Below, one piece after another: positions 1,014-43,470 of a DNA stretch of 50,826 nt. A program made the translations under genes and the position numbers. Under the pieces are notes generated by a model, which was not told the DNA's origin, did no database searches, and was given only the letters and a program-made list of their open reading frames with translations. The stretch is from a virus: the IMG/VR virus record IMGVR_UViG_3300025669_000046, positions 1 to 50,826 of that record; one strand, 5' to 3'. Each line of letters opens with the position of its first letter. Position 1 is the first letter of the stretch.

Positions 1014-2750
1014 CTATTGCTCCACTATATTCTTCATTTTTATATTAGCTATTCTATCACCGTCATCTAAGTCGGCTACAAAGTACTCGCTTGTGGTATA
1101 GGTTGTGTCTTGTACTGGATTAGTTCCTGAACCACCGCTTGGGTCTACTAATGTCCAGTTAGTGTCACCAAAATCACCACCTTTTATGAACACAGCGAAT
1201 GTATTAGCAGGATAAACAACACTTCCACCTGCTCCTGAGATGTCCGGGAACACACCCTCGCTGGATAGTCGTGCGACTTTTAGTCTGTAATAAGTGTTGT
1301 TGTCGATGTAAGATGCTGCTGTTACAAATAAAATAGAAATTCCAGAATTAATTAATGAAAGTTTCTCATCTGAACTTATGTTTATTCTATATCCCCCATT
1401 ATCTGCTGAGTTCGTATTTGAATCTAAAAATGAAACTGATATTGAATTTCCAGCTCCACCTTTATACAAATCAAATTCCCATTCACCATAGGCTTGTTTG
1501 CTCTGTACAGCAGTTGTGCCTGCACTGTCACACTCTAGGTACTTAGTCCCAACCTTCAAGTCTGTAAGCACAGAGTCTGCTATTGCCATTTCATCTGTAA
1601 AATAAGTACCAGTGCCAGTTATGAAGGGGTCTTTAGTTCCAACAATGCCATCAGCACCGTCGTAGATCATGTTGTCTCTAAAGTACACCTCTTGAAAGGA
1701 ATTGTGGTATGCCTTAGCCTGAGTTGGTGTTAGTTCATAATTATAAAAATTCAAGTCAGCAATATCAAATGCACCATAGGATGTATCATTCAGAGCTAGT
1801 GTACACGCACTCATATCTACATCAGTTGAGCTGGTAATTACCACATTATGCCAAAGCCCAGCTGAGATTGTATCATTATCACTACCATTAATATAAGCAT
1901 TATCAAACTCTGCATAGGTTAATGTTCCTGCACTTGCTAGTATTAATTTATCATTAGCTGCACCCTCGAGTATTTGCTCAGTTGTAGTCGCTAGTTTAAT
2001 TCTGAAAGACACAGACTTTACATTGCCTAGATTTCCTAAAACTTCTTTGTCATCCACGCCATCAAACACAAGGCTGCCTTTGCCATCACTCAATGCACCA
2101 GAGATGGTACCAGTATTCCCATTCCCTGAGGTGTCAGTTAGAACACCATCCCCGCTTGGGATCATGTTATAAGATGCTACTAGACCAGTCTCCTTGCTCA
2201 GGTCAGCCTGCTTAAGAACTGGACTTGGGGCGTACTTAGTTTCATATAAGTTAAAAGAGTGTTGAAACTCCTCCATTAAATCGTTTCTTTCTTGTGTGGT
2301 TAGAAGTGCATCAAAACAAATGATTCTAGCAATATAAGTTTTTGTAGTTGGTGTAACTTCTAGGTCTGTTGAGAAATCTATACCACCACTAAATTGGCTT
2401 TCGGACATCTGCCATTCATTCAATACAGCAACATCACTATCTAAGTTATTAACATAATTCTCGGTTAGTCCAGTTCCTGAATATGAACCACCAGTAATTT
2501 CGAGCTTATCAGAACCATCATCTAAAAGAATTTTAGTGTTATCTATTGGTTTTATAAACATTATAATGGTCTTAACCCCAGTTAAAGTTACACCACTATC
2601 AATATCAGTAGCACTACCATCAAACAGCATAGCCTGACCCTTCTCGGTCTGCTTAAACCCACCAGTACCTGCTGTTAGTGTGCCTTTTATATTACTTACA
2701 GTATCTCGTAAACTCCCAAGTCGTGCATCAAAATTAAAAATCATAGACAT
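1014..2750 (-). CDS. LamG/concanavalin-fold adhesin or fibre protein
   Basis: 578 residues. It contains at least one clear LamG-type (concanavalin A-like) unit: 'TGLVASYNMIPSGDGVLTDT' then 'GNGNTGTISGA' and 'GSLVFDGVDDKE' around residues 188-235, followed by a Trp-His pair and a 'NFYNYELTPTQAKAYHNSF' segment about 110 residues later. The N-terminal 170 residues look like a second, diverged copy ('MIFNFDARLGSLRDTVSNIKG', 'GQAMLFDGSATDID'). The C-terminal 180 residues resemble another jelly-roll. LamG domains bind carbohydrate or protein, so this is probably a virion surface adhesin. ATG at 2750 has GAGGGAT upstream. The first 10 nt overlap the end of the HNH gene, which appears to have inserted between this gene and the lectin-fold gene. 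Confidence 0.7.
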   Translation of the reverse strand: MSMIFNFDARLGSLRDTVSNIKGTLTAGTGGFKQTEKGQAMLFDGSATDIDSGVTLTGVKTIIMFIKPIDNTKILLDDGSDKLEITGGSYSGTGLTENYVNNLDSDVAVLNEWQMSESQFSGGIDFSTDLEVTPTTKTYIARIICFDALLTTQERNDLMEEFQHSFNLYETKYAPSPVLKQADLSKETGLVASYNMIPSGDGVLTDTSGNGNTGTISGALSDGKGSLVFDGVDDKEVLGNLGNVKSVSFRIKLATTTEQILEGAANDKLILASAGTLTYAEFDNAYINGSDNDTISAGLWHNVVITSSTDVDMSACTLALNDTSYGAFDIADLNFYNYELTPTQAKAYHNSFQEVYFRDNMIYDGADGIVGTKDPFITGTGTYFTDEMAIADSVLTDLKVGTKYLECDSAGTTAVQSKQAYGEWEFDLYKGGAGNSISVSFLDSNTNSADNGGYRINISSDEKLSLINSGISILFVTAASYIDNNTYYRLKVARLSSEGVFPDISGAGGSVVYPANTFAVFIKGGDFGDTNWTLVDPSGGSGTNPVQDTTYTTSEYFVADLDDGDRIANIKMKNIVEQ

Positions 2751-3511
2751 ATTATATCCCTCATAAATTTTTCATAATAATCTTGCCATTTACTTCTATT
2801 CCAATTTGTTTTAGCATGACAAACATTACATAAGGTTATTAAATTAATTAATTCATTATTATTTTTATTATAATCTATATGATGAATATGAAGTATTCTT
2901 TCTTTATCTGATATTCCACATTCTTGACAAATATAATTATCTCTTTCTCTAATTAACTGTTTTAATTTATTATTCCATTCTTTAGGATAAATTTCAAAAG
3001 AAATACCTCCTTTCCATCCTGGTGCATTTTCTCCTTTATATATTTCTCCAAAATGTTTTGACATACAATCTTTAGAACAATAAGGTAAATGATGTCTTAC
3101 ACTTAAACTTCTTTTTATAATACTTTTACCACAATAAGTGCATTCTACTTCTGAATATTTTCGTTCTATTCTATAATTATCATAACACTTTCTATTACAA
3201 AAATGTATTGAATGTCTATTATCTTCATTATTAGTAATCAATACTTTTTCACCACAATAATTACACATAACAAGTTTACCAGTGAATCTTATACTATCCA
3301 CACCAGAAGGTTGAGGATTTTTAATTTGATACTTTTTTTGTGCATCGTGTAATTTTTGTTTAGTTTCGTCTGTCATGGGATTTTCTTCCTTCCATTTATA
3401 TAAACATTCTTTACAACAAAAATGGTGACTATCTCTTTTACATCTAAATGGTTTCTTGTTAAACCTAGTTTTACATTGATCACATTCTACCATGTTTGCT
3501 ACTTTATTCAT
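2741..3511 (-). CDS. HNH homing endonuclease with N-terminal zinc fingers
   Basis: 256 residues. The N-terminal half has three Cys-rich zinc-ribbon-like units (CDQC...CCKEC, CNYCGEK...CNRKC, CTYCGKS...CSKDC), probably for DNA binding. After a NUMOD-like linker with 'GENAPGWKGG' comes an HNH nuclease: 'CQECG' then 'LHIHHIDYNKNNN' and 'NLITLCNVCHAKTN'. This arrangement is that of phage homing endonucleases that cut a specific site and copy themselves into genomes lacking them. It stands free between the lectin-fold and LamG genes and has no structural role. Its base composition is more AT-rich than the flanking adhesin genes, which supports separate origin. Confidence 0.85.
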   Translation of the reverse strand: MNKVANMVECDQCKTRFNKKPFRCKRDSHHFCCKECLYKWKEENPMTDETKQKLHDAQKKYQIKNPQPSGVDSIRFTGKLVMCNYCGEKVLITNNEDNRHSIHFCNRKCYDNYRIERKYSEVECTYCGKSIIKRSLSVRHHLPYCSKDCMSKHFGEIYKGENAPGWKGGISFEIYPKEWNNKLKQLIRERDNYICQECGISDKERILHIHHIDYNKNNNELINLITLCNVCHAKTNWNRSKWQDYYEKFMRDIICL

Positions 3512-3587
3512 TTCTTTTCACATTTAAACACAAAATTCCGATAGCCGATAACCGATTACCAGATAAAATATTATATTTTTTGAAATA

Positions 3588-5060
3588 TTATGGTACTACT
3601 GCACAACGCAGCCCGAGGCCGGTGCTCAAGGTCGAAGGACCATCGTTCAGGAGCAAGGCCAAAGACCCAGCATAAGAACCAGAGCCCCAGGAACCACTCC
3701 GCAGGAACCCACGCACTGTCGTTGATGCACTTGATCTATTACTATTGGTGTATATTCTACCCACACCATTGCTTGAGTTGTAATTCCCACGCATAAACAA
3801 ATCATTCCTACTCAAAGTAGTGTTACCTAAGTCAGTTTCATCTATATATTTTACATCACTATCAGCCTGGTTGTATCCAAACCAATTAAACCCAGCATTA
3901 TTCTCAGTACCATCATCATTGAACCCATCAGGCTGGTCTTTGCTTTGGATTGTATCACTGCACCAATTCCATACATTCCCTGCAAAGTCCCAAATGCACT
4001 GACCATTACTCAAAAATAAAGTACGTCTTTGGTATCCTGAGCTCTGACCAGTTCCTGAGTATCCATCATTATCATCCGTGCTCGCTGCTAGACTGTTTGC
4101 TGGAGTTCCGTCATTGTGCCCACTATAAATATAACCAGTTCCCACTGTTCCTGAGCTCCAGTTAGACTTGACATTTTCTATGTTCCTGGCAATGGACATC
4201 CATTGTGTGTTTGTAATTAATTGAACAGTGCAAGTTGCAAGGTCTGAGTCCAGTGCTCTAAAGCTATCTTGAAGTGCTGCACACTCTGCTATGCTCGCAG
4301 TTTGGGTTATGTTCACCCAGGGAGTTCCGTCTGCCCTGCTCTCTGCCTCATAAGCTGAGTCATAAGCTATATTCCCATCAGCAATACCCTTAATCTTCAT
4401 ATCATACTTAGACACAAAGAAACCCTTAGCGCCTGTTATGTAATCCGCTGGGACATACACAAATCCTTTATCTGCCATTTTCCGCATTATATGCTCTGAG
4501 GTTCTGCCTCTGTACTTTCTTTTGTGGTACATCGCCTCTACTTCACCAGGAGTCAGTGTGCCTTGATATATCTCAACTAAGTCCATTGTGCCTAGAAATT
4601 CATCTGAATTAGAAAATCTTGAACCAATTAATGTTTTATTGGCACCAGTTCCTTCTATTAAAGTTATTCCAGTTATAATTATTTCATTATTAACTCCTGC
4701 TACTGTAGTAGTAGTTGCAACACCATTAACATAAGCAGTCCCACTTTGAGCACTTAAATTTCCAGTAGTTACATCAAATCTAACAAAACCAACTCCATCA
4801 ACATTAGTCCCTTCACAGGTAAATAAATATCTATAACCTGCAAAACTCGTAGGATTACATCTAATCCTCACACTATAAGTACCATTCAAATCAAGGTCAT
4901 AATTTATCTTAGAGCTTGTACCATTAAATGTTCCCTTTCCATTACTGAAGTCTACATCGGTTGGTACACCATTATTTATTTTTCTTGTTATTTGTTCTGA
5001 TTCAAAGGTTTCCTTAAAAATAAGAGAACTACTTATACCATAACGTGATTCTTTAGTCAT
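3588..5060 (-). CDS. LamG + formylglycine-generating-enzyme/C-type-lectin-fold receptor-binding protein (likely DGR target)
   Basis: 490 residues from the ATG at 5060; GAGGG lies 9 nt upstream, so the upstream TTG is not preferred. Residues about 10-170 form a LamG-like unit ('NGKGTFNGTSSKINYDLDLN', 'LVEIYQGTLTPGEVEAMYH'). Residues 185-490 carry the FGE-sulfatase/C-type-lectin fold: 'GFVYVPADYITG', 'FFVSKYDMKIKG', 'LITNTQWMSIARNIE', 'CIWDFAGNVWNWCSD' and a C-terminal 'GLGLRCAVVP' matching the family's 'GFRCA'. In viruses this fold is the usual target of diversity-generating retroelements, where the last ~40 codons vary to change host binding. Here the last ~120 nt change sharply in composition (see 3600-3716). 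No reverse transcriptase or template repeat is visible in this window. The first 8 nt overlap the end of a homing-endonuclease fragment. Confidence 0.8.
   Translation of the reverse strand: MTKESRYGISSSLIFKETFESEQITRKINNGVPTDVDFSNGKGTFNGTSSKINYDLDLNGTYSVRIRCNPTSFAGYRYLFTCEGTNVDGVGFVRFDVTTGNLSAQSGTAYVNGVATTTTVAGVNNEIIITGITLIEGTGANKTLIGSRFSNSDEFLGTMDLVEIYQGTLTPGEVEAMYHKRKYRGRTSEHIMRKMADKGFVYVPADYITGAKGFFVSKYDMKIKGIADGNIAYDSAYEAESRADGTPWVNITQTASIAECAALQDSFRALDSDLATCTVQLITNTQWMSIARNIENVKSNWSSGTVGTGYIYSGHNDGTPANSLAASTDDNDGYSGTGQSSGYQRRTLFLSNGQCIWDFAGNVWNWCSDTIQSKDQPDGFNDDGTENNAGFNWFGYNQADSDVKYIDETDLGNTTLSRNDLFMRGNYNSSNGVGRIYTNSNRSSASTTVRGFLRSGSWGSGSYAGSLALLLNDGPSTLSTGLGLRCAVVP
3600..3716 (-). other. 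Candidate DGR variable region (adenine-depleted 3' end of lectin-fold gene)
   Basis: On the coding strand these 117 nt hold 9 A, 36 T and 72 G+C by my count (about 62% GC, under 8% A). The surrounding gene and whole window are strongly AT-rich. The encoded segment (VRGFLRSGSWGSG... to ...GLRCA) aligns with the usual variable region of C-type-lectin DGR targets, whose template would typically read 'RGGSWNNG-NAG-FALNLNNAP-N-NTNIGFRCA'. Adenine-directed mutagenesis removes A from variable regions, which would produce exactly this skew. Just downstream of the stop, 'ATCGGTTATCGGCTATCGG' (minus strand, about 3536-3556) is a short heptad-type repeat. The retroelement assignment is inference. Confidence 0.6.
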
Positions 5061-5241
5061 ATTTATTACCCTCAAATATATTATAAATCTTACTAATATG
5101 TTCTTTAAATTCTTTAGTCATATTACCACAAATACATTTACATAACCATTTATTACTACCATTATTAGTTTTACCATTTAATTCAATAACCGTTAAATCA
5201 CCAAATTGTTTTCCAGTTAAATCATGTGCTTTTCTTGGCAT
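5053..5241 (-). pseudogene. Truncated homing-endonuclease N-terminal domain
   Basis: 62 residues: 'DLTGKQFGDLTVIELNGK' and 'WLCKCICGNMTKEF'. This is the N-terminal DNA-binding motif ('DLTGQ-FGRLTV-E ... WLC-C-CGN') that precedes HNH or AP2 domains in many phage homing endonucleases. The usual continuation (a 'SGNTKSCGC' Cys pair and the nuclease) is missing; the frame stops inside the ribosome binding region of the lectin-fold gene. It therefore looks like a degraded endonuclease, not a working gene, although expression as a short peptide cannot be excluded. Confidence 0.65.
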
Positions 5242-5360
5242 ATCATCACTTTATAAGTATCATCCAGCGTCATCTGGTCTCCATCGAGTCCGTCATATCA
5301 ACACTGGGGTTCATTGTAGCTATGCGTTATGCTCAACACACAATGCATAGGTCTATAGAT
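5242..5360. other. Short intergenic stretch with weak inverted repeat
   Basis: About 120 nt between the endonuclease fragment and the next late gene. I find no convincing gene; the longest minus-strand peptides are under 20 codons. 'ATGCGTT...AATGCAT' near 5320-5347 is a weak inverted repeat with one mismatch. The stretch is less AT-rich than its neighbours and may be a leftover of the insertion that brought the endonuclease. Confidence 0.35.
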
Positions 5361-5783
5361 TTATTCTTGTTGAGTATAATGTGCTTTAAGTTCTTCCCAG
5401 GTCATGTCGCCCTTGAGTTCATTAAAGACTTCTTCAACTCCCCAGTGTTGGTACACATCAAAGTCTTCTAAAAACTTAACTTGTGTAGTAGGGGTATAAT
5501 AAACTACAGCACTTATCAGTTCATTAGTATCCACATCATACTCAGCTGGAGTGATAATGTGTTTACCTTTTAGCTTTAATTCCATATCTGACACTAACAT
5601 TTGTTTAGCAGATTTTACTTCATTATAAATAGCCTGGATATCTTCAACCTTCAAGTGTACATTGCCTGGGTTATCAGTAATATAACTATTCATAATTGTC
5701 ATTGCGTTAAAGTCATTATTCCCAAAGTTAGCATAACCATCTTTAATTTGTTGCACTATTTTTATTTTTATTGCATCTTCCAT
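5361..5783 (-). CDS. Unknown late protein, possibly fibre-associated
   Basis: 140 residues from ATG at 5783; AGGTGA lies 6 nt upstream, whereas the in-frame GTG at 5792 lies inside that site and is unlikely. The protein is acidic, has no membrane segment or signal peptide, and ends 'WGVEEVFNELKGDMTWEELK'. The C-terminal half ('IITPAEYDVDTNELISAVVY') suggests a small folded domain. I do not recognise the family. Its position in the fibre cluster suggests a chaperone or fibre-linked role, but this rests only on context. Confidence 0.6.
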   Translation of the reverse strand: MEDAIKIKIVQQIKDGYANFGNNDFNAMTIMNSYITDNPGNVHLKVEDIQAIYNEVKSAKQMLVSDMELKLKGKHIITPAEYDVDTNELISAVVYYTPTTQVKFLEDFDVYQHWGVEEVFNELKGDMTWEELKAHYTQQE

Positions 5784-5809
5784 ATCATTCACCTATTAAT
5801 ATATATTAT

Positions 5810-5953
5810 TTAAGGATACTCGTGATAGTATACCTTTACGTCTGTTGTATTTGCTATAGTATTACCTGAGCTATCCGCAGTTAGTGTAGTACCAATACCA
5901 TCAAGAATGTCTTGTGATAAAGTACCACCTTCACTTTCTTTAATACCGTTCAT
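5810..5953 (-). CDS. Small late protein, 47 residues
   Basis: A small gene (MNGIKESEGGTLSQDILDGI ... DVKVYYHEYP) whose ATG lies 8 nt after the stop of the upstream structural gene, which suggests translational coupling; there is no clear ribosome binding site of its own. The pattern 'TLTADSSGNTIANTTDVKVYY' resembles a beta-strand-rich stretch found at the ends of phage structural proteins. It may have separated from the upstream protein by a stop codon. Function unknown. Confidence 0.5.
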   Translation of the reverse strand: MNGIKESEGGTLSQDILDGIGTTLTADSSGNTIANTTDVKVYYHEYP

Positions 5954-5961
5954 ATAAATTG

Positions 5962-6849
5962 TTATACTAGATAACCACCATCTACACAAGACATATATTC
6001 AATTGTTACTGTTAGGTCTGTTGCGGTTGCTCCTGTTCCTTGTAGGTCAATTGCTATGGTCTTTGTTGCGGCAAGTCGTACTGCACCAGTCCAGCCTACT
6101 TGTTTATCAGCTGCGTCCAGGTTTGCCTGTATAGCATCAGTAGTACCAATAAATTCTACTACTTGATTCACTCCACCCTCAACTGCACAGGTTGTCATAT
6201 CTGCTGTTTGTGCTGCATCAGCGTGAATTGTCACTGACTTAATCATACAAGGCTGTGTAGTAATTGTTGCAACTGTAGTTACTCCTGCATTAGCTGCTGC
6301 TGTAATACTTACTTCTTTAACTTGAATTACACCGTATTCTCTTCTATAAGCAGTTGGGGTTGCTGTTGTCCCGTCCAAGAAATCTTGATTTGTGTCTACT
6401 ACTGTGTCAATAGTTACTAAACTTGCTGGTATATCAGTTACCACTGCTGTGTTTAAAGTTGTAATTGTAGCAGGAATTGTTGTACCAGTATCTGCAAGAA
6501 TATCTGTAACATTACTTTGAAGTGTAGTTAATGCACCAGCATCAGGAATTACATCAGTTACTGCTTTTACAGCAGTCACATCACTTTGAAGTGTTGTGAT
6601 TGTGCCTGGAATTGTTGTTCCTGTGTCATTTAAAATATGTGTAATATCACTTTGAGCTGTTGTAATTGTTCCAGGAATTGTAGTTCCTGTATCTAACACA
6701 ATTTGCTTAGATACGGCTACTAATGAATCACCCGCAGTTGTGTCAGATTTCTTACCTACTACATCAACAACGTTTACATCATCAGCAGAGTCCTCTGCTG
6801 GGACTGCAATCTCAGTTGTGAAGTCGGTCTTAGTTAATTGATTTTTCAT
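5962..6849 (-). CDS. Repeat-containing virion structural protein
   Basis: 295 residues. The first half has at least three copies of a 'DTGTTIP(G/A)TITT' unit spaced by short 'LQSDVT' linkers (about residues 50-150), typical of fibrous or trimeric coiled segments in phage fibres. The second half (about 165-295) is a Thr/Ala-rich beta domain ('TPTAYRREYGVIQVKEVSIT', 'SVTIHADAAQTADMTTCAVE', 'TVTIEYMSC'). GGGTGAT precedes the ATG by 7 nt. It is separated from the 557-residue structural gene by a homing endonuclease gene. A shaft or decoration role is inferred from repeats and neighbours; no enzyme motif is visible. Confidence 0.6.
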   Translation of the reverse strand: MKNQLTKTDFTTEIAVPAEDSADDVNVVDVVGKKSDTTAGDSLVAVSKQIVLDTGTTIPGTITTAQSDITHILNDTGTTIPGTITTLQSDVTAVKAVTDVIPDAGALTTLQSNVTDILADTGTTIPATITTLNTAVVTDIPASLVTIDTVVDTNQDFLDGTTATPTAYRREYGVIQVKEVSITAAANAGVTTVATITTQPCMIKSVTIHADAAQTADMTTCAVEGGVNQVVEFIGTTDAIQANLDAADKQVGWTGAVRLAATKTIAIDLQGTGATATDLTVTIEYMSCVDGGYLV

Positions 6850-6861
6850 TCATAATCACCC

Positions 6862-7572
6862 TTAATAACTCTTTATTATATTATCATTTATAATATTAAT
6901 ACATTTATCTATATTATTTATTATATCATGTTCCCAAAATCTTAATAATACCCAACCACATTTAAATATATATGCATTTTTAGATTTATCACGATTTTTA
7001 ACATCTGTTCTATTATGCCAATAATCACCATCACACTCAATTATTATTTTATCTTTAATAATAGCAAAATCACAAACAAATTTATTCTTAAAATTATATT
7101 GATGTATATAATTTATACCACACTTTTTTAATTTATTTTTCATTATAATTTCTATATTAGTATTTATTTGTTTATATTTACCATTAATTAAGTTTTTAAT
7201 AGTTGCATTTCGCATCAATTGCTTTGATGCCTCAGTGTGTTTTTTATCTTTCATACCAGAAACTCTACCAGTCATTATTTTACTTTGACGTGCTCTTTGT
7301 GTTAATGATATAATTTTACCTTTATGTATTTTACTTATCTTTTGTTTAAAACTTAATGATTTGGGTCTTCCTTTTAATGTTACACTTATTTTTTGTTTAA
7401 CACTTTCAGGCATAGATTTTCCTTTCAACCAATTATTAGCACCAACTTTCAATTTTGTTTCTTCAGAAAGATGTTTACCTAAACGTGATTGTCTTAATTT
7501 TTCTTTAGAAACATCATTATGTCTAAAATATATAGGATGACCTTTTTGAAAACCTTTAAGTCCTTTTGTCAT
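6862..7572 (-). CDS. Free-standing homing endonuclease, NUMOD3 repeats + Vsr/DUF559-like nuclease
   Basis: 236 residues. Residues 20-125 hold NUMOD3-type DNA-binding repeats ('LSEETKLKVGANNWLKGKSM', 'SFKQKISKIHKGKI'). Residues 135-236 form a PD-(D/E)XK-type fold of the Vsr/DUF559 kind: 'FVCDFAIIKDKIIIECDGDY' with acidic residues near D168, E179 and D181, then 'WHN' and 'LLRFWEHDI'. Such proteins (the EDxHD-like family) cut DNA and spread as free-standing genes. It lies in the late block between two structural genes with 6-12 nt spacing on either side, which is typical of a seamless insertion. It shares its architecture with three other genes in this window. Confidence 0.85.
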   Translation of the reverse strand: MTKGLKGFQKGHPIYFRHNDVSKEKLRQSRLGKHLSEETKLKVGANNWLKGKSMPESVKQKISVTLKGRPKSLSFKQKISKIHKGKIISLTQRARQSKIMTGRVSGMKDKKHTEASKQLMRNATIKNLINGKYKQINTNIEIIMKNKLKKCGINYIHQYNFKNKFVCDFAIIKDKIIIECDGDYWHNRTDVKNRDKSKNAYIFKCGWVLLRFWEHDIINNIDKCINIINDNIIKSY

Positions 7573-10783: not shown

Positions 10784-11644
10784 TTATTTTATTGATTCTA
10801 TAACTTTTTTAAATAATTCTTCATTCTTTATTTTTACATCAATAATTTTTACATTATATCCTAATTTCTTCAATTCTTTTTTTCTATAATTATCCTTTTC
10901 TATTCTATCTTTTTTAGTATGCCAATAACCATTAATCTCAATTATTAAATTTTGTTTTATAATATAAAAATCACAAACAAATCTATTATCAATTGATTTT
11001 TGAAACTCATATTGTATATTATTTCTTTCTAATAATATAATAAATAATAATTCTGGTTTTGATGCATTATCTAATTTTTTTATTCTTTCTGAATTTATTA
11101 AGGAATATTTCATTTTTTCAATTTGCTTTATCTTTTTTTCATTATTATTAGGATTGCTCCAATATTTTTGTCGCCCTATACTTATTTTTCTACATCTTTC
11201 TGGATTTCTTAATGATGTAAGTAAATTTTTATATGAATCTGATTTTTTCCATTCTTTACTATGCTTTGTTTTACTTTGTGATATTGCATATTTTTTTACA
11301 GATGCACTTGTTTCTTTAGTTAATCCTTTATTCCAAGCAACTTTTCCTTTACGATATTCACTTATTTTTTTTCTTATTTCTTTTGATATATTACTTTTTG
11401 ATTTTTTGATTTTTTCTATTGTTTCTTGTGAATGCTTTTTACCTTTATTCCAAGCAACTTTTCCTTTATGAGATTCACTCATTTTTTTCCTTGATTCTAA
11501 TGAATTTTTTTTACCCTTTCTTGGGGATATCCTACCTAATGCTCTTTTACTCAATTTTTCTTTTATTTGATTAACCTTTTCAATTGAAAAACATTCACTT
11601 AATTTCTTTCCTTTATTCCAAGCAACTTTTTTCTTCTTTTCCAT
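10784..11644 (-). CDS. Free-standing homing endonuclease, NUMOD3 repeats + DUF559-like nuclease
   Basis: 286 residues from ATG 11644 (a TTG 9 nt upstream is possible; ribosome binding site weak). Residues 1-120 carry several NUMOD3 units with 'KVAWNKGKKHSQETIEKIKK'-type repeats. The C-terminal 110 residues hold a nuclease core: 'FVCDFYIIKQNLIIEINGYW', 'H', and 'KKLGYNVKIIDVK'. Compared with its relatives the usual 'ECDG' is 'EING', and the Trp-Glu-His motif at the end is replaced, so activity may differ. It follows the terminator of the capsid gene, so it may be expressed poorly or only by read-through. Confidence 0.8.
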   Translation of the reverse strand: MEKKKKVAWNKGKKLSECFSIEKVNQIKEKLSKRALGRISPRKGKKNSLESRKKMSESHKGKVAWNKGKKHSQETIEKIKKSKSNISKEIRKKISEYRKGKVAWNKGLTKETSASVKKYAISQSKTKHSKEWKKSDSYKNLLTSLRNPERCRKISIGRQKYWSNPNNNEKKIKQIEKMKYSLINSERIKKLDNASKPELLFIILLERNNIQYEFQKSIDNRFVCDFYIIKQNLIIEINGYWHTKKDRIEKDNYRKKELKKLGYNVKIIDVKIKNEELFKKVIESIK

Positions 11645-11671
11645 ATATCTCAAATTAAAAAAATAAATAAA

Positions 11672-17084: not shown

Positions 17085-17897
17085 TTATATATTTATTTGA
17101 TTATAATATGATTCTTTAAATATATTTAAAAAATCAATTTTATTCATTTTATTAATTTGATGTTCCCATAATCTTAAAATTTTATATTCTGCATTTTTCA
17201 ATTCAATATTTCTAAATTTATCATTTTTTGTACCTAATGGATAATTATGCCAATAATTTCCATCACATTCAATTATCATATTTAAATCTTGTATATAAAT
17301 ATCACATTGATATTTATGTTCTATATTTAATATTGGTTTATGCTTAATAAATGGAATATTTAATTCTTTTAAAATAATTTGAATCTTTTTTTCTATTGAA
17401 GTTTCCCATGTATGTTTTTGTAATAATCTTGCTTTTTTTATTTTTCTTCTTGCTTCTTTCGTAACAATATGACCTTCTAAATTATTTGCATATTTATTTA
17501 CTCGTAAATCTGTTTCTTTTGTTAATCCCTTATTCCAAGTAATATTTCCTTTATGAGAATCACTTAATTTTTTTCTTGTTTCTTTAGAACATATTTTTCC
17601 TTTATTTGCAATACCAATTTTTTTCTTTTGCTCCTCTGACATTTTTTGTCCTTTATTTGGTGAAACTCTACCTTTTAATGATTTATGTACCTTTTCTTCA
17701 TAAGATTTTACATCTTTATAAAATAATTTAGAACTTTTACCTTTCCAAATACATGATCTTGATAATCCTAAATCTTTATTTTTTAAATTAAATTTGTTTG
17801 TATATTCTTTAATAGTCATATTATGTTTTTTTAAATGCTTATGCGTAATACTTTTAAAACATTTCCCACAAATTTTACAATATAATTTAATATCCAT
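17085..17897 (-). CDS. Free-standing homing endonuclease, zinc finger + NUMOD3 + DUF559-like nuclease
   Basis: 270 residues. An N-terminal C2H2-like unit ('LYCKICGKCFKSITHKHLKK' with a following His) precedes NUMOD3 repeats ('GRVSPNKGQKMSEEQKKKIG', 'KICSKETRKKLSDSHKG', 'ITWNKGLTKETD'). The C-terminal 100 residues form the nuclease: 'YQCDIYIQDLNMIIECDGNY', 'WHN' and 'ILRLWEHQI', the same signature as the endonuclease at 6862-7572. It stands 2 nt downstream of the portal gene, a common insertion place for such elements, and has no structural function. Confidence 0.85.
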   Translation of the reverse strand: MDIKLYCKICGKCFKSITHKHLKKHNMTIKEYTNKFNLKNKDLGLSRSCIWKGKSSKLFYKDVKSYEEKVHKSLKGRVSPNKGQKMSEEQKKKIGIANKGKICSKETRKKLSDSHKGNITWNKGLTKETDLRVNKYANNLEGHIVTKEARRKIKKARLLQKHTWETSIEKKIQIILKELNIPFIKHKPILNIEHKYQCDIYIQDLNMIIECDGNYWHNYPLGTKNDKFRNIELKNAEYKILRLWEHQINKMNKIDFLNIFKESYYNQINI

Positions 17898-17899
17898 AA

Positions 17900-19708
17900 T
17901 TATTTCTTCTTTTTTATTTTAGTTTCTTCAACAAGTTCCCCAGTACAAAGGCAACGATTAGCCCAACCCATCCACTCAATTTTTTTATCTACCATATCTT
18001 TAATTTTATACATTTTACCATGCTTATTTATATGATATATTCTTGGATTTTCTGATTTATTATGTCTCCAAATTACATCTCTATATCCATCATTATATGA
18101 TTTTTTTAACCAATTATACATTTTCTTTGCATGCACGTTCGGTGTGGAGTCCTTGACGTCCTTGTTCTTTTCCTCTAGGACTTTTTCTTGAAACGCAGCA
18201 GCAGGAGATTCTTCTTTCACCTCTGATTGATCAGACTTAGTCTGTTGTTCTTCATTCTCTTCAATTTTATTCTTCTCAGAATTTTTAATATATGGATTAT
18301 CAAATTGCTTGTATTCATTCTCATCCATACCATACTTCTGTTGTAGCAATGCATTCCATTGAGCTTGGAATAGATCTCCATTCGTAATAATCTCGTATCC
18401 TAGTCCCTTAAGTAACTGATTCAGTGTAATTGCATTGTTGTTATACAACTGTATTATTGATTCTTGTGTGTCCTTAGAATCATCTAATGTAACCTCACCG
18501 AACTCGAAGGTTGCATCCTTTAGCTTAGGATCTTGCTTCATTACGTGCTTTAGAATATTTTTATTAAGTAACTTAATATATTTATTTCTCTTATTCTCTA
18601 GACTTAATTCGAAAGGTATCTTCGCATTCGTGCTCGATGCATATGTGACTGTATCACTCCACGGGGTCATGAATGCTGGAGTTAATCCTGAACTTACTTC
18701 CTTTCTATTATACTCTAATCCATTCGGCATCTCGTTGAACTGAGTTGGTGTGATCTCTGTGCTACCAATTTTCTTGTTTATAATTACATGCTCCTCATCC
18801 TCTGGGGAGTTTAAAATGTCAGTTATAGTCTTTAGCTCTGTTGGATCAGGTCGGTCATTCTCGTCACCGACACTGAATATCTTCTTTCCGAATGCCATGA
18901 ACCGACTCGCGATCGCGTAATTCTTAAGTATCTGTGTGATGATCTCACTCGAATTAATTGTGGAGGCTAGATAGCTTCGACCATAATAACCATATCTTGA
19001 TAATCCGATCTTCATATGTATCAAGTCATCCTCTTTCAAGCCGACACCATAAACAGTCTCCTGCCAAGCAATACCATTTTTGACATAACTAATTAAATAC
19101 TGCTTAAGAACCATGTCACCATACTTTCTAAAAATATATGGAACTTGATAAATCCAGAACTCGTTTTCTTTATTCGCGACCTGGGCGAGATTATAATACA
19201 CCCTAGAAGAATCTGGTGAGACCTTAAAGTCGTTCATGTACTTTATACCACCTGTAATTGTGTCCCATACTGGTTCGATCCAGCTATTCCCACAGACCTC
19301 GCATTGAGTTATTATATTTTGAACTGATTCTGTTACATGGTCCCTTTGCTCGAGCCATTTACCAAACCAATCATTTGTATACTTATCTTTACTCGTAATC
19401 TTAATCTCGTTTCCTGTGATGAACAACACAATCTGATTCACACCAGAGTTTATATTCGGGATGTCCTCATAATTCTCTAAATTCCTCTGAATCTCATAAT
19501 GAGGTGTTCTCAAGGAATTTTTAAATAAAGTAGTTCTAAATGTATATGCACCAAGATCTGAAACAGTAAAGTTCTTTTCCTTTAAATTCTTCTCGATCTC
19601 GTCCACTCTATATGCTTTAGAATAAGCCCTGTTACTAGACTCCTTACTAATAGGCTTAATATTCTCGGTTCTAATACTATTATCTCTAAATAATTCTTTA
19701 ATTCTCAT
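17900..19708 (-). CDS. Portal protein with C-terminal MuF-like extension
   Basis: 602 residues. Residues about 60-440 match portal proteins: 'NINSGVNQIVLFITGNEIKI', 'ITQCEVCGNSWIEPVWD', 'DDLIHMKIGLSRYGYYGRSY' and 'LNSPEDEEHVIINKKIGS', then 'SGLTPAFMTPWSDTVTYASS'. The portal forms the dodecameric DNA gate and terminase dock. After an acidic linker, residues 520-602 ('HAKKMYNWLKKSYNDGYRDV', 'IWRHNKSENPRIYHINKHGK', 'MGWANRCLCTGELV') resemble the C-terminal part of SPP1 gp7/MuF head-morphogenesis proteins ('WRH...RP-H...G----NCRCT'). Fusion of the two is uncommon but known. Upstream are two small genes and the terminase; downstream an inserted endonuclease. Confidence 0.85.
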   Translation of the reverse strand: MRIKELFRDNSIRTENIKPISKESSNRAYSKAYRVDEIEKNLKEKNFTVSDLGAYTFRTTLFKNSLRTPHYEIQRNLENYEDIPNINSGVNQIVLFITGNEIKITSKDKYTNDWFGKWLEQRDHVTESVQNIITQCEVCGNSWIEPVWDTITGGIKYMNDFKVSPDSSRVYYNLAQVANKENEFWIYQVPYIFRKYGDMVLKQYLISYVKNGIAWQETVYGVGLKEDDLIHMKIGLSRYGYYGRSYLASTINSSEIITQILKNYAIASRFMAFGKKIFSVGDENDRPDPTELKTITDILNSPEDEEHVIINKKIGSTEITPTQFNEMPNGLEYNRKEVSSGLTPAFMTPWSDTVTYASSTNAKIPFELSLENKRNKYIKLLNKNILKHVMKQDPKLKDATFEFGEVTLDDSKDTQESIIQLYNNNAITLNQLLKGLGYEIITNGDLFQAQWNALLQQKYGMDENEYKQFDNPYIKNSEKNKIEENEEQQTKSDQSEVKEESPAAAFQEKVLEEKNKDVKDSTPNVHAKKMYNWLKKSYNDGYRDVIWRHNKSENPRIYHINKHGKMYKIKDMVDKKIEWMGWANRCLCTGELVEETKIKKKK

Positions 19709-20551: not shown

Positions 20552-23356
20552 TTAAAACAAATTGTTCATTTTCGCCTTTGATACGAGTTTATACATCTTC
20601 AACTTCTCTTCGATTGTAATCTCTTTATTCTTAATATCTACATCTTTCTTGCTTTCTTCAATCCTTGCCTCTCTAGATAACTGATTCCCGATCAATATAC
20701 CAGACCCTGACATCAGGCTGTTTAGATTCTTAGGCAATAATGCATGAGCATTAGATATTGTAGTGTCTCCATGCGCCATGTCATCAGTCAAATCCGATTC
20801 GACCTTCTCGAAGTTATAATCATACTGCCAACCACTGAAGTGCATTAACTGCACACTATCCCGAAGATAAGTCACTTTCTTATTCATTTGCTTTTCGAGT
20901 TGGTTTGTATGCAGATATTCCTTAATCCCGACTGATTGTTTTCTATTTATCTTAATTCTATTCCCACGAACCACACGCACATGATGAGGGAACAACTTCT
21001 TTAAGTAATTAGACAACTGCACTCCTAGTCCATTTCCATCAATGTTCATCATTTCCAGACCGAGTGGCATGAAATGCTCAGACAAGTCCTGACAGACATC
21101 CTGCATGTAAGTCAAGTCCACACCTATTTTGTAATATAACCCCTCTTGGTTATAATTTATGTCATCGTCATTGAACACAGAAATAGAAAACATATCATTC
21201 GAGTACGCGGGATCGATGCCAATGTGCCATTTGCCTTGCTTATTCGGCCATTGGGATTTATCTAGACTGAATCGATCCTCGCTATTCAAAAAGAAGTTCT
21301 TATTATTATTTAATAAATTATCACGAATGAATTGTATGTCATAAAGCTTGTCGGTCTCGTCCACAAGCATTGCCATGTACTCTTCCTTGAACCGATTCAG
21401 ATTCATTCTTCGTCTTTTTTCGAGCTCAACAAGAGTAAGCCAAGGCACTATAGGGACAAGATCTTGCTTTGTTAGATCTTCATTCAGATTCACCTTCTTC
21501 GGATCCAATGCTGGCCACTTTCGTATTATAAACCCAGAATCGAAGCCTGTGTTGTTAAGCATCTCTATATTCTCTAACCAAAGATTGAAGCTCGTGAACC
21601 TACCTTTCCTTGTAGTCCCATATGTAAGTTGCAATGCCTTTTTCCCGATGTTCTCTCCGGATATAGTAGCACCTCTGGATGCGTCCTGCATTGCGATGTC
21701 TATGTTCTGGAACTCAATCTCGAAGTTACAATTATGTGAGAGTAACTTCATGCCACTAACTAAATAATTATGATTATTTTCTACTTCAAAATTATATACT
21801 ACTCGCCTTTCATTCTTTATAACAATATCTTTAATTTTATATATTTTATAATTATTTTTATTTATTTTTATTTCTTTATAATCATTATAATCTTTTGACA
21901 ATTTATACTTCATTGAAGGAATAATATATGGTGATATAATTTTACTTAACTTTAATGCATTTTTTTTATTGAATTTTATAAATGCTTTATTGCATCTTTT
22001 ATCTTTTAATAAAACAACATCAATATCATATTTATTTTTAAACCAATTCTTAATCAATATATTTTCTGCATATGAAAATGAATGAGTTGCTAATGTTGCT
22101 CCCCATATAACCCTACAACCATCATCCATAAACCAATATGCTAATGATATGTCTGTTAATTTATTTAAATAATTACTAGAAATAGTCTTTTTATTCTTTA
22201 TATATAATTTATTATATACATCTTTATATTCATTACTAATTTTTGAATATGCCTTTATAACATTACCACCAAAGGATGTCTTTTTTACTTTTTCTTTTTT
22301 TAAATTGAATATATCCACAATATGATCTAAATATTTCATTTGCTTTATTGAATGGCATGTTGAAAATATTGCAGACTTATATTTATTATATAATGAAATA
22401 TTTCCATCACCTAATAAAACACCATACAATATTTCTAATTGTATCTTATTTAATTTATATGAATTCTTATTTGTAAATGATATTAAATTATCATTTACTT
22501 TAAATTCTGAAATTGGTTTTATTTTAAATGTATCATCATAAAATGGATGAGTATCAGTGCACTTTATTGAATAACCTTGATTATGCATTTTAACATAATA
22601 AACATTACCATTATATGTTCTTTTATTTTTATGTACTATTTCCTTAAATTCTACTTTATTATTATTTAAGTTATAACTTGCTAATTTATAATTATCTATA
22701 TTTTTATAAATACCCGAGCATACTACTACTCCTTTATTGGTTACTAATTTTACATTACCTAACAAACATTCGTCATTAAATCCATAATTAATTCTTAGTC
22801 CTCTGATGTTCTCCGAGGATCTCGAGCTCGATGGATACCCAGTGATTGTCACATCCCTATCCGGGATCGTGATCTCATGTGCAGTAAATCTCACGAGCTT
22901 ATTATTAAATGGCCAATAAATCACAGACCCATCGTCTTGTGTGTATGTTAATGGTGTCATTTTCTCGATTATTTCTTTCATCTCTTTACTAATAAGCTCC
23001 ATGACTTTTTTATCATTGATTCTAACTATTGGAGCGATCTGATCTTTAAATTCATAAGTATTAGTACAAAATCTAATTACACCATCTGTGGTTAGTGATG
23101 TATTTCTAGACTTAATTATTACTTCAGAAAGAGCATTATATTGCTTTATCACTAAATCATCTTTATGAAACTCGGCTTGATGATTAGTTAGTTTAATTGG
23201 TCCCCATGTACCATCTGGGTATTTTACTTTAAAAACAGACTCTATCATTTTCAGATAGACTTCTTCTTTTTTTGTTACTTCCGGTGCAGGATACCAGCTC
23301 GGATAAACCGATTGCCATATATGATAATCACTAGGACTATCATTCACGCTTGGCAT
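20552..23356 (-). CDS. terL: Large terminase subunit, interrupted by an intein
   Basis: 934-residue precursor; 588 residues remain after removal of the intein (residues 197-542). ATPase part: a Walker A-like 'IIKSRNTSLTT' at about 80-90 (no classical GKT/S) and Walker B 'YGFNDE' at 191-196. The coupling region reads 'LTYGTTRKGRFTSFNLW'. The RNase H-like nuclease has 'HIGIDPAYSND' (D715), 'MMNIDGNGLGVQLS' (D773) and 'SDLTDDMAHGDTTIS' (D858/D859), so all three acidic positions are present. The protein packages DNA through the portal and cuts it. The gene is first in the late block, behind the promoter at 23426-23449, and its product needs protein splicing to restore the ATPase site. Confidence 0.9.
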   Translation of the reverse strand: MPSVNDSPSDYHIWQSVYPSWYPAPEVTKKEEVYLKMIESVFKVKYPDGTWGPIKLTNHQAEFHKDDLVIKQYNALSEVIIKSRNTSLTTDGVIRFCTNTYEFKDQIAPIVRINDKKVMELISKEMKEIIEKMTPLTYTQDDGSVIYWPFNNKLVRFTAHEITIPDRDVTITGYPSSSRSSENIRGLRINYGFNDECLLGNVKLVTNKGVVVCSGIYKNIDNYKLASYNLNNNKVEFKEIVHKNKRTYNGNVYYVKMHNQGYSIKCTDTHPFYDDTFKIKPISEFKVNDNLISFTNKNSYKLNKIQLEILYGVLLGDGNISLYNKYKSAIFSTCHSIKQMKYLDHIVDIFNLKKEKVKKTSFGGNVIKAYSKISNEYKDVYNKLYIKNKKTISSNYLNKLTDISLAYWFMDDGCRVIWGATLATHSFSYAENILIKNWFKNKYDIDVVLLKDKRCNKAFIKFNKKNALKLSKIISPYIIPSMKYKLSKDYNDYKEIKINKNNYKIYKIKDIVIKNERRVVYNFEVENNHNYLVSGMKLLSHNCNFEIEFQNIDIAMQDASRGATISGENIGKKALQLTYGTTRKGRFTSFNLWLENIEMLNNTGFDSGFIIRKWPALDPKKVNLNEDLTKQDLVPIVPWLTLVELEKRRRMNLNRFKEEYMAMLVDETDKLYDIQFIRDNLLNNNKNFFLNSEDRFSLDKSQWPNKQGKWHIGIDPAYSNDMFSISVFNDDDINYNQEGLYYKIGVDLTYMQDVCQDLSEHFMPLGLEMMNIDGNGLGVQLSNYLKKLFPHHVRVVRGNRIKINRKQSVGIKEYLHTNQLEKQMNKKVTYLRDSVQLMHFSGWQYDYNFEKVESDLTDDMAHGDTTISNAHALLPKNLNSLMSGSGILIGNQLSREARIEESKKDVDIKNKEITIEEKLKMYKLVSKAKMNNLF
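21731..22768 (-). mobile_element. Intein with LAGLIDADG homing endonuclease inside the terminase
   Basis: 346 residues within the terminase reading frame, inserted exactly after Walker B Asp-Glu. The N-terminal residue is Cys ('CLLGNVKLVTNKGVVV'), splicing block B is 'TDTHPFY', and the C-terminal block is 'HNYLVSGMKLLSHN' followed by Cys+1, so all splicing residues (C1, B-block T/H, penultimate H, terminal N, C+1) are present. The endonuclease has two LAGLIDADG-type helices ('LEILYGVLLGDGNIS' and 'SLAYWFMDDGCRV'), both with an acidic residue, so it may still be active. Terminase ATPase motifs are known intein insertion points. Confidence 0.9.
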
Positions 23357-28611: not shown

Positions 28612-28640
28612 ACTTAATCATTTCCTAATGTCATATATAA

Positions 28641-28674
28641 TTATATACCAAAACATTTATAAACATATTTATTT
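28641..28674 (-). promoter_or_regulatory. Early-type archaeal promoter
   Basis: Minus strand AAATATG-TTTATAAA-TGTTTTGGTATATAA: TATA box at 28656-28663 followed by the shared TTTTGGTATATAA downstream element. Drives the gene at 28611 and probably the genes below it. Confidence 0.7.
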
Positions 28675-34406: not shown

Positions 34407-35252
34407 ATGAGAAAAGGACAGAAAATTTCAGAAGAAACAAGAAAAAAAATGAGTGAATGGCATAAAGGAAAAATATGTTCTAAAGAAACACGAAAAAAAA
34501 TGAGTATAGTAAATAAAGGAAAAATATTATCAGAAGAAACAAAAAATAAAATAAGTATAGCAAAGAAAGGACATAAAGTTTCAGAAGAAACAAAAATAAA
34601 GATTGGATTAGCAAATAAGGGGCATATAGCTTGGAATAAAGGAAAAGAACGTTCAAAAGAAACAAGACAAAAAATAAGTAAATCAAATAAAGGTAGAATT
34701 TCACCAATGAAAGGTAAAAACCATTTAGAAGAAACAAAAAGAAAAATGAGTTTAGTTCATAAAGGAAAAATAATGTCACAAGAAGCAAAAAAAAAAATGA
34801 GTATTGTAAAAAAAGGATGTATTCCTTGGATTAAAGGTAAAACACATTCAATAGAAACAAAAAAAAAATTAAGTGAATATCGTAAAGGTAAAACACATTC
34901 AATAGAAACAAAAAAAAAATTAAGAATTATACGTTTAGAACAAATTAAAAAATATTTTAATTCTCAACCATATATAAATGTAGGAGGAAAGAATGAAAGT
35001 CAGATATTAGATAATATTGAAAATATTGATAATATTATTATTAATAGAGATTTTACATGTATAGGTTATCATCCTGACGGTTATTGTAAAGAAACAAATA
35101 CAATATATGAAATTGATGAAAAATATCATTTTGATTATAATGGGAATATAAATAAGAAAGATATAATAAGACAGAATAATTTAATTGAGAAATTGAATTG
35201 TGAGTTTGTTAGGATAAAGGATTTTGAAGATTCTAAATATTTTAAGGTGTAA
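34407..35252 (+). CDS. Homing endonuclease with about ten NUMOD3 repeats
   Basis: 281 residues. Residues 1-175 are about ten NUMOD3-type units of about 17-18 residues ('ISEETRKKMSEWHKGKICSK' and similar), an unusually long array encoded by imperfect 50-60 bp DNA repeats. The C-terminal 100 residues have 'ESQILDNIENIDNIIINRDF', 'GYHPDGYCKETNTIYEIDEK' with D and ExD acidic residues, and 'LNCEFVRIKDF', consistent with a PD-(D/E)XK nuclease. It starts 6 nt after the 38-residue regulator and its stop abuts the primase ATG, so it has inserted into the replication operon without visibly breaking neighbours. Confidence 0.8.
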   Translation: MRKGQKISEETRKKMSEWHKGKICSKETRKKMSIVNKGKILSEETKNKISIAKKGHKVSEETKIKIGLANKGHIAWNKGKERSKETRQKISKSNKGRISPMKGKNHLEETKRKMSLVHKGKIMSQEAKKKMSIVKKGCIPWIKGKTHSIETKKKLSEYRKGKTHSIETKKKLRIIRLEQIKKYFNSQPYINVGGKNESQILDNIENIDNIIINRDFTCIGYHPDGYCKETNTIYEIDEKYHFDYNGNINKKDIIRQNNLIEKLNCEFVRIKDFEDSKYFKV

Positions 35253-36539: not shown

Positions 36540-36550
36540 ATTTACATTAA

Positions 36551-36583
36551 TAAATATGTTTATAAATGTTTTGGTATATAAAT
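36551..36583 (+). promoter_or_regulatory. Early-type archaeal promoter
   Basis: AAATATG-TTTATAAA-TGTTTTGGTATATAA with TATA box at 36559-36566; identical over its core to the minus-strand promoter at 28641-28674. Confidence 0.75.
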
Positions 36584-37756: not shown

Positions 37757-39976
37757 ATGAGTTTGAAGTTTAATTTATCCGCGAGTAGCGTGTCGAAATA
37801 TAAGGAATCACAATTAGACTTTTATTATACATATATAGAAAAGTCTAAACCTGATACTCAAATTCTATCAGTTTATGGTAATGCTGGGAATATTGTTCAT
37901 TCTTCCTTAGAGAATTATATTACTTTATTAAAGAATAAGGATGTAACTAAGGGCTATGCAAAGACAGAAGTCGAGAAGTATTTTAGTACTCAATGGTTTG
38001 AAAAGAATATATCACAAATGCAGACGAAAAATAATAAACCCCTTGATATAAATAAATATTTTAATGGATTAAGGAATGCGTTTGTATATATAAATAAAAA
38101 TATTAATATAAGTAATAACTTAATTCCGGAACAGAAGTTCATTTTCCCAATAGTTAATACTAAAGATGCAGTTATAAATTTCAAGGGATTCATAGATCTT
38201 GTGGATGAAACTACTGATATAATTTACGACTGGAAGACAAACTCATCTATTCAGAACTTCAACCTACATGCTAGAATTTATTGCTATGCATATTGGAAAA
38301 TGTATAATAGAATTCCAAAGGCTATATATTATTATTGTAATGTAGATAAGCCAAAAATATATTATTTCACAAAAGATGAAGTTCTAGAAACTGAAACTGA
38401 ATTGAATGATCTATGCAAAGAAATCATAGGTAAAGGACATGACATTTCTAAGTACGATCTAGGTAACTATAATCATATATTCAATGTACATTTACAGAAG
38501 TGCAAAAGAGAGGCATTGAATAGACAGGACTCTGATGTGATACAATACAATATTGAAAAGAATAATATAATATTCAGAAATTTAAACAACAATTTAAAGA
38601 ATATAATTGATAAAAAATTTAGTTATTATATAAACGGTCATGAGTTTAGTGACTTATTTAAAAAGAGAATATGGGATGGCAAAACTCATTTATTTAGTAT
38701 AAAAAGTAACAAATTACCTATTGGTTTATTTACGATTTTCAAAAAATTACTTAATCAATATAATAAATATTCAGAAAGGGACTATAAATTAGAACTAAAG
38801 TATGATTTAAGAAATAAAGATATAATGTCTAATCAATTCGAGACTAAGTTTAAGGACAATAAAGATATAGAATTAAGATATTACCAAAATGATGCAATAA
38901 AAAGTGCGATAGAAAACAAGATAGGAATTATATATGGCGGAACTGGTTGTGGTAAGTCTATCATTTCAGCAGAGATTATTAAGAATATAAATAAAAGAAG
39001 TTTATATATTATAAATAGAATAGAACTTGTTGATCAAACTGCAGAGGTCTTTGAGGAATATTTAGGAATAGAAATTGGGAAAATGTCTGAGGGGAATCTG
39101 GATATAAATAAACAGGTCACAATCGCATCAATTCAAACGGTTAATAGCCTCTTAAAACAGAGCTCTGAGAATTCGAAATTACTAAAAAAGTATTTATACA
39201 ATACAAACATCTGTATTTTTGATGAATGCCAGAACGTGAAAGACGATGGGTGCTATAAATTGTTATCGAATAACTTAACTAATTGTGAGTATTTAATAGG
39301 CATGACAGGAAGTCCATTTAGGAACGATGAGCACACACTTAAAATGAAGGCATTAGTCGGTGATGTTATTTATAGTAAAACTACAAAAGATCTAGTATCC
39401 GAGAATTACTTAGTTCCGACTAAGGTTTATTTTTTAGAGTACGATACAATTTTTGATAGAAATTATCAAAGCTACTCTGACGCATACACAGATCTCATTG
39501 TAGGAAACATTGAGAGAAATAATTTAATTAAAGACATTGTAAGTAAGTTCGAGAATAAAAAGATCTTAATTATCACAAAATTAATAAAGCATGGAAAGTT
39601 ACTCGAAGAACTTATCCCAGATAGCTTTTTAATCACAAGCCAAACAAAAAAGGATATACGAAAGCAAAAGTTTAAGGACTTCAAGGACAATAAATTTAAT
39701 ATTCTTATCGGATCGGCTCAGATATTCTCGACCGGAATTGATATTCCCGATCTTGATATAATTCTAAACAGTAGTGGTCATCGTTCAGATGTTTTATCAA
39801 CTCAAATTATAGGACGAGTTATGCGTAAGTCTAAAAATAAAGAATTTGGATACTACATAGACTTTATAGACGACACGAGTGTATATTTCAGGCAAGCAAC
39901 TAAGCAACGAATTCAGATTCTAACAGAATTCGGGCACGAAATTTTAAAAATTAATGATATAAAGGACATACAATAA
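37757..39976 (+). CDS. Fusion of Cas4/RecB-like nuclease and UvsW/Rad25-like SF2 helicase
   Basis: 739 residues. Residues 1-215 match RecB-family PD-(D/E)XK nucleases: 'SASSVSKYKESQLDFYYTYI', 'GNAGNIVHSSLENYITLL', 'INFKGFIDLVDETTDIIYDW' with D147 and D158-W-K160, then 'HARIYCYAYWKMY'. No Cys cluster for an iron-sulfur site is evident. Residues 265-330 ('KKRIWDGKTHLF') resemble the N-terminal part of T4 UvsW. Residues 375-739 form an SF2 helicase: 'GIIYGGTGCGKSIISAEII' (K400), 'DECQ' (D489), 'GMTGSPFR', 'GSAQIFSTGIDIPDLD' and 'QIIGRVMRKSK'. Together they could process recombination or stalled-fork DNA. Fusion of the two activities in one chain is notable. Confidence 0.8.
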   Translation: MSLKFNLSASSVSKYKESQLDFYYTYIEKSKPDTQILSVYGNAGNIVHSSLENYITLLKNKDVTKGYAKTEVEKYFSTQWFEKNISQMQTKNNKPLDINKYFNGLRNAFVYINKNINISNNLIPEQKFIFPIVNTKDAVINFKGFIDLVDETTDIIYDWKTNSSIQNFNLHARIYCYAYWKMYNRIPKAIYYYCNVDKPKIYYFTKDEVLETETELNDLCKEIIGKGHDISKYDLGNYNHIFNVHLQKCKREALNRQDSDVIQYNIEKNNIIFRNLNNNLKNIIDKKFSYYINGHEFSDLFKKRIWDGKTHLFSIKSNKLPIGLFTIFKKLLNQYNKYSERDYKLELKYDLRNKDIMSNQFETKFKDNKDIELRYYQNDAIKSAIENKIGIIYGGTGCGKSIISAEIIKNINKRSLYIINRIELVDQTAEVFEEYLGIEIGKMSEGNLDINKQVTIASIQTVNSLLKQSSENSKLLKKYLYNTNICIFDECQNVKDDGCYKLLSNNLTNCEYLIGMTGSPFRNDEHTLKMKALVGDVIYSKTTKDLVSENYLVPTKVYFLEYDTIFDRNYQSYSDAYTDLIVGNIERNNLIKDIVSKFENKKILIITKLIKHGKLLEELIPDSFLITSQTKKDIRKQKFKDFKDNKFNILIGSAQIFSTGIDIPDLDIILNSSGHRSDVLSTQIIGRVMRKSKNKEFGYYIDFIDDTSVYFRQATKQRIQILTEFGHEILKINDIKDIQ

Positions 39977-40004
39977 ATACGTTTATAAATATTTTGGTAT
40001 ATAA
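39973..40004 (+). promoter_or_regulatory. Early-type archaeal promoter
   Basis: ATAAATACG-TTTATAAA-TATTTTGGTATATAA; TATA box at 39982-39989. The expected start near 40008-40012 lies before the methyltransferase ATG at 40026, so the clamp-loader-like N-terminus is transcribed. Confidence 0.7.
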
Positions 40005-40025
40005 ATATATAAAATGTGAATACAT

Positions 40026-43433: not shown

Positions 43434-43470
43434 AAATAAATACCTTTATAAATATATTGGTATATATATT
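43434..43470 (+). promoter_or_regulatory. Early-type archaeal promoter
   Basis: AATAAATACC-TTTATAAA-TATATTGGTATATATA; TATA box at 43445-43452. Expected start about 43470-43480, just before the leader hairpin GCCT-GAAT-AGGC (43483-43494). Confidence 0.65.

Follow-up and report, generated by a model that had tools for sequence, protein, structure and literature searches.

An adenine-poor, GC-rich stretch at the 3' end of a gene in a virus contig raises the question of whether it is the variable region (VR) of a DGR target and, if so, where the template repeat (TR) and the reverse transcriptase that rewrote it reside. The contig, a linear record of 50,826 bases with 34% A and 30% G+C overall, is referred to in its entirety as the window. 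Among its 70 listed ORFs, those at both contig ends are cut, and no terminal repeat was found in the 50,826-base record. The gene at issue, the domains of its product and the segment under study are as follows.

3588..5075, minus strand: target gene, an ORF of 495 aa with a TTG start at 5075 and an alternative ATG start at 5060.
Residues about 104-179 of the target protein: N-terminal LamG-like domain (Pfam Laminin_G_3, E 7.9e-5, below the curated cut-off).
Residues about 190-495 of the target protein: C-terminal FGE-type C-type-lectin domain (Pfam FGE-sulfatase, E 2.7e-4, below the curated cut-off).
3597..3713, minus strand: putative DGR VR, RGFLRSGSWGSGSYAGSLALLLNDGPSTLSTGLGLRCAV, of 117 nt encoding 39 aa, in register with known TRs.

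The first-pass annotation of this DNA had counted 9 A and 72 G+C in the 117 nt at 3600-3716, and a recount of the coding (minus) strand gave exactly these figures (A 9, C 31, G 41, T 36). Compared with 11,525 in-frame 117-nt stretches drawn from 37 ORFs picked out of the 70 listed, this segment has both the lowest A content (mean 47.0, sd 8.4; minimum outside the segment 25) and the highest G+C content (mean 36.8, sd 9.1; maximum outside the segment 62). The adenine-depleted segment is found where VRs are expected, at the end of a C-type-lectin/FGE target.

The lectin fold that had been attributed to the target holds as an FGE-type assignment only: the Pfam matches of the window protein itself lie below cut-off, and it is through homologues that the FGE assignment of the C-terminal domain becomes firm at the sequence level. 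A PDB search with a nine-row profile matched FGE structures at E 1.9e-9 and weaker, and gave as its best match TaqVP (PDB 5VF4, E 2.1e-55), a score probably driven by L001, L004 and L005; the window protein alone does not find TaqVP in the PDB search. According to the available part of its description (PMC6328139), TaqVP belongs to a Thermus aquaticus prophage DGR and has an FGE-subtype fold with a C-terminal VR. Predicted models of the target had mean pLDDT values of 31.6 and 33.9, too low for use as fold evidence. PHROG 2889, whose function is unassigned, matches target residues 453-494, which is the A-poor segment itself. The GLRCA string with which the segment had been said to end does occur near the end of the gene, although the very terminus reads GLRCAVVP followed by the stop codon. 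No relatives of the whole target, the capsid protein or the C-terminus of the terminase were found in viral_contigs, and none of the target and the capsid protein among phage records.

To compare the segment with TRs, we designed search motifs from the peptide that it encodes, with AAY put at the codons that looked variable. Matches were obtained in seven viral stretches, in a further two by means of a proline-type motif, and in one genome (a Patescibacteria MAG), and all ten stretches proved to be TRs with a second, mutated copy nearby; L004 and L007 have one TR in common, hence nine distinct TRs among the ten. Each of these TRs differs from its own VR at 13-21 positions in 22-28 A columns and at 0-3 positions in 79-95 non-A columns. 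RVT_1 is present in nine of the ten TR-bearing records, and in the tenth the contig ends soon after the TR. The window segment aligns without gaps to all ten motif-found TRs and departs from them preferentially at TR adenines. The nearest viral TR is that of L008 (IMGVR_UViG_3300028272_000244), RGFIRGGNWNNGSNAGSFALNLNNAPSNTNNNIGFRCAR, from which the window VR differs at 18 of 25 A columns and at 24 of 92 non-A columns (p 4.2e-5). Third codon positions account for 17 of these 24 non-A mismatches, and at codon positions 1-2 only the counts are 18/25 for A versus 7/53 for non-A columns (p 4.6e-7). Furthermore, the window has NNY at 11/11 AAY codons of the L008 TR. L008 also resembles the window in its register, in the FGE-type end of its target and in ATCTG/ATCTA repeats after the stop codon, but it carries TR and reverse transcriptase beside its VR and differs at the non-A positions counted above.

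At the protein level, an HMM built from 18 TR/VR peptides of nine viral loci finds the window at E 2.9e-9. The residues W, G, A-G, A-L, L, G and R are invariant across all nine aligned rows, and residues that are usually fixed in TRs are altered in the window (F to L twice, G to S).

The motif search is partly circular, the window itself and knowledge of DGRs having gone into the design of the TR motif. A less circular test is provided by the TRs of L047, L055, L056 and L058, which were found by FGE homology with no motif, and here p ranges from 1.3e-6 to 0.0037. The lower value is the A-column bias of the window VR against the L056 TR, with a relative's TR as reference. These four and L010/L018, which is common to the motif-found ten, constitute the five Patescibacterial TRs. 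The window aligns gap-free to these five and differs from them at 73-80% of their A columns, compared with 30-43% of the other columns. The adenine depletion, the NNY codons, the gap-free TR register, the concentration of departures at adenines and the homology to DGR targets together bear out the earlier identification of the segment as a DGR variable region in an FGE/C-type-lectin target; 3597-3713 is very probably the VR of a DGR target.

As a system, the window represents a known kind, a DGR target, and we consider it highly probable that the gene at 3588-5075 ends, on its 3' side, in a VR rewritten by mutagenic retrohoming from an AAY-rich template. In the proposed mechanism, a TR RNA rich in AAY codons would be copied by an error-prone DGR reverse transcriptase, and the adenine-mutated cDNA would replace the VR, scrambling about 11 codons on the binding face of the FGE-type C-type-lectin domain. 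In the virion, the FGE domain would be borne by a LamG-containing protein, probably for host-cell binding. The rewriting appears to have been recent, because the stretch has retained its low-A, high-GC character in a genome of 30% GC. A DGR of the archaeal virus ANMV-1 is described, in the available part of the report (PMC4372165), as acting on the tail-fibre C-type-lectin protein AdtA; unlike the window, ANMV-1 has a complete local cassette, with TR and VR found beside the reverse transcriptase.

The location of the template and the enzyme is a separate matter. The first-pass annotation had stated that no reverse transcriptase or second VR copy lies in the window, and we confirmed this: RVT_1 gave 0 matches in the record, tblastn of the relatives' reverse transcriptases against the window returned nothing credible (best E 0.010 over 35 aa), and repeat searches returned only the VR itself. 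No TR was found in the window, the best copy having 23 non-A mismatches of 117, and two nucleotide TR patterns gave 0 matches each in viral_contigs. The absence of TR and reverse transcriptase from the record proves little, because it is linear, has cut end genes and no terminal repeat, and because PHROGs, applied to 20 of its proteins, recognised no tape-measure or tail-tube protein. The earlier proposal of a DGR acting in trans is therefore supported as to its VR, while a TR and reverse transcriptase in trans would be hypothetical, neither having been found for this linear record with cut genes at both ends.

Our first choice, to which we assign slightly less than an even chance, is a complete cassette with its TR and reverse transcriptase in the part of the genome that this contig lacks. 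They would have been separated from the VR, with the HNH gene that now follows it as one possible cause.

2741..3511, minus strand: HNH endonuclease gene (Pfam HNH, E 2.5e-5, over the cut-off).

This gene fills the place directly after the VR where the motif-found relatives carry TR and reverse transcriptase. The signs of incompleteness just listed speak for a missing cassette, as does the regular presence of the reverse transcriptase in the TR-bearing records. However, the TR-VR distance in the motif-found cassettes is 0.5-1.3 kb, the 3.6 kb downstream of the VR gene in the window have an HNH gene and tail-like genes in their place, and the remaining 47 kb contain neither TR nor reverse transcriptase.

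Considerably less probable, in our estimate, is that the virus keeps only the VR and relies on a TR and reverse transcriptase supplied by its host or by a co-resident element. The lineage motif RGFxRxGxWxxGxxAGxxAL returned, in addition to L008, two further viral contigs, G011 (38.7 kb) and G012 (46.9 kb), which carry A-poor VRs of the same lineage as the window. Both are linear, RVT_1 was found in neither and no TR in either, and a second copy of the G011 VR was not found in its contig. G012 contains two VRs 21 kb apart, at the following loci.

G012, 3436-6348 (L012): gene for a 970-aa LamG+FGE protein, VR-bearing.
G012, 18729-19244 (L015): gene for a 171-aa FGE-like protein, VR-bearing.

The two G012 VRs differ at 23/117 positions. 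At 19 of these positions the L008 TR, which has 25 A columns, carries A (p 3.6e-13), and the remaining four are columns 0, 2, 115 and 116, the extreme ends. Since the differences are confined to A columns bar the ends, the simplest reading is that one TR, missing from the record, wrote both VRs. Such patterns of substitution make it possible to demonstrate that a lone VR in a viral contig has been rewritten, and the window is not an isolated case. The G012 target is also like that of the window in having LamG-like parts (by reading of its sequence results), and G012 is unlike the window in its two VRs and in the absence of a GGTG-type start-site motif. The weight of these contigs as examples of VRs served from outside is reduced by the fact that the window, G011 and G012 are all linear and may be incomplete.

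Supply by a host is also favoured by the FGE domain of the window, which, within the collections searched, has its nearest matches among Patescibacterial targets. At E<=1e-10 it was found in 13 of 379 Patescibacteria genomes, with a best match of 47% identity over 290 residues (E 1.1e-44); with the same domain as query, 50,697 phage records gave no match at E values up to 1, and 72,556 plasmid records gave two weak ones. The cellular genomes sampled were those of Patescibacteria only, and other phyla may hold the FGE family too. The Patescibacterial FGE-type targets (e.g. G290, G139, G010) differ from the target of the window in belonging to cellular genomes and in having a local cassette at five loci: a local TR and reverse transcriptase are present at 5/14 FGE loci, with TRs showing 0-3 non-A mismatches in 105 nt, and the other 9/14 have no TR within the 7-18 kb examined. 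These nine (L048-L054, L057 and L059) are FGE genes with VR-like ends that could represent remote VRs, relics or ordinary FGE proteins. Six of the 13 genomes with an FGE match show no RVT_1 match, and no matching TR was found beside the reverse transcriptases of two Patescibacteria genomes with lone VRs.

Action in trans between loci of one bacterial genome has been reported for Thiohalocapsa PB-PSB1, where remote VRs are diversified according to the available part of the source (PMC10907252), and remote variable proteins are described in cyanobacteria (PMC7517822). In both cases the VR lies away from TR and reverse transcriptase, as in the window, but the parts share one cellular genome and the TR is known, whereas the window is a virus record without a TR. 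In our search of the open-licence literature, no account was found of a host DGR diversifying the VR of a virus. Against a host-supplied template, a fully degenerate TR pattern gave 0 matches in the 379 Patescibacteria genomes, and the start-site motifs of the window point away from Patescibacteria as host.

GGTG-type start-site motifs precede 11/40 window genes (control position 1/40), compared with 7/179 in Patescibacteria loci (control 5/179), 5/41 in ANMV-1 (control 1) and 6/40 versus 4 at the control in bacterial phage DGR regions. Patescibacteria had been considered as host on account of the FGE domain, but these motifs are unlike those of Patescibacteria loci and more similar to those of the archaeal virus ANMV-1, which makes such a host less likely; the capsid protein, for its part, has 0 matches in the 379 Patescibacteria genomes. 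As far as sequence goes, the FGE domain points to Patescibacteria or to something sharing genes with them. A 35-nt TATA-rich element, mostly intergenic, occurs four times in the window with 0 expected, at 28639-28673 on the minus strand and at 36549-36583, 39972-40006 and 43435-43469 on the plus strand. The TATA-rich elements and the GGTG-type start-site motifs suggest archaeal-like promoters, and repeated TATA-like intergenic elements would fit an archaeal virus.

We give about the same low probability as to supply from outside to a third explanation, in which the VR was captured with its gene from a DGR-bearing element and its rewriting has ended. No TR or reverse transcriptase is in reach, and the loci without a TR in the stretch examined and the genomes without an RVT_1 match among the Patescibacteria would be in keeping with such a relic. 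The window VR has non-A mismatches to every known TR (at best, among viral TRs, the 24/92 of L008), including the F to L and G to S changes, and these differences leave room for relic drift. They may, however, belong to the window's own unseen TR, and the composition, A-poor and GC-rich without drift towards that of the 30% GC genome, and the open frame also argue against a relic. That the segment is no DGR product at all, and that the composition jump at the end of the gene reflects chance, a GC-rich insertion or an assembly artefact, is very improbable and was rejected, since the segment is a composition extreme of the 11,525 stretches, keeps the reading frame, shows homology to DGR targets from one end to the other with invariant residues in nine rows, is found by the VR HMM, and shows FGE homology and the TR-adenine bias.

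Downstream of the VR, the window also contains short repeats.

3538..3564, minus strand: cluster of short, degenerate direct repeats, ATCTGGTAATCGGTTATCGGCTATCGG, located 26 nt beyond the stop codon's first base.

These 27 nt contain four ATC[TG]G units, and four in 75 nt are reached by 0.1% of window 75-mers; the lag-7 identity of the post-stop flank is 0.63 (p 0.015). ATCTG or ATCTA units also follow the stop codon in L005, L006, L008, L009 and Bacillus phage BalMu-1; in cyanobacterial plasmid DGRs, CCCTTTA-like units take the place of the ATCTG repeats. A periodicity test at lags 7-9 gave p<0.05 in 13/28 VR flanks, that of the window included, in a set that omits L031, one of two L028 flanks and the 264-nt L027 row; the TR/VR rows L019, L031 and 264-nt L027 are probably in the wrong frame or direction. 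BalMu-1 fails this test, and the ANMV-1 and BPP-1 flanks show no such short direct repeats. Post-stop repeats of 7-8 nt were observed in many DGR targets, namely the window, L005, L006, L008, L009, L021, L026, L027 and L029, the ATCTG type being that of phage-like loci. Because the motif was picked after looking, the finding is exploratory and serves as a lead; the repeats might represent a cis element not described before or a scar left by retrohoming. In BPP-1-like phages, the available part of the source (PMC3240598) defines targets by a GC-rich hairpin 4-34 bp after the VR. The window has no GC-rich post-VR hairpin, its flank offering only an AT hairpin of 6 bp, and a clear GC-rich hairpin is present in 5/10 cassette loci (script 4; L005 by eye, with one G-T pair), about half being without.

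Several other features of the record were observed. The load of homing-type genes is heavy: besides the HNH gene at 2741-3511, three genes match NUMOD3 (Pfam) at 6862-7572, 10784-11653 and 34407-35252, a similar-looking one lies at 17085-17897, and an intein with a LAGLIDADG endonuclease sits inside the terminase (20552-23356). A DNA methylase (Pfam N6_N4_Mtase) is encoded at 40026-41642 on the plus strand, and its N-terminal 40 or so residues, judged by eye, resemble the beginning of a clamp-loader small subunit, as if the methylase gene had been fused in.

DGR surveys that start from the reverse transcriptase miss stand-alone VRs; a reverse-transcriptase-centred survey would miss remote targets, as noted in the available part of Roux et al. 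2021 (PMC8144416). The window and its two companion contigs indicate that lone VRs can be found from the VR outward, with the variable codons reverted to AAY. If the template lies on the missing part of the contig, the window adds one more phage DGR. We think it improbable, but worth stating, that some viruses, the window, G011 and G012 among them, carry only the DGR landing site, in a tail protein with an FGE domain of a cellular family, and that the TR and reverse transcriptase of the host randomise its receptor-binding face. If the template is in the host, the virus would be using the hypermutation machine of its host to alter receptor binding.
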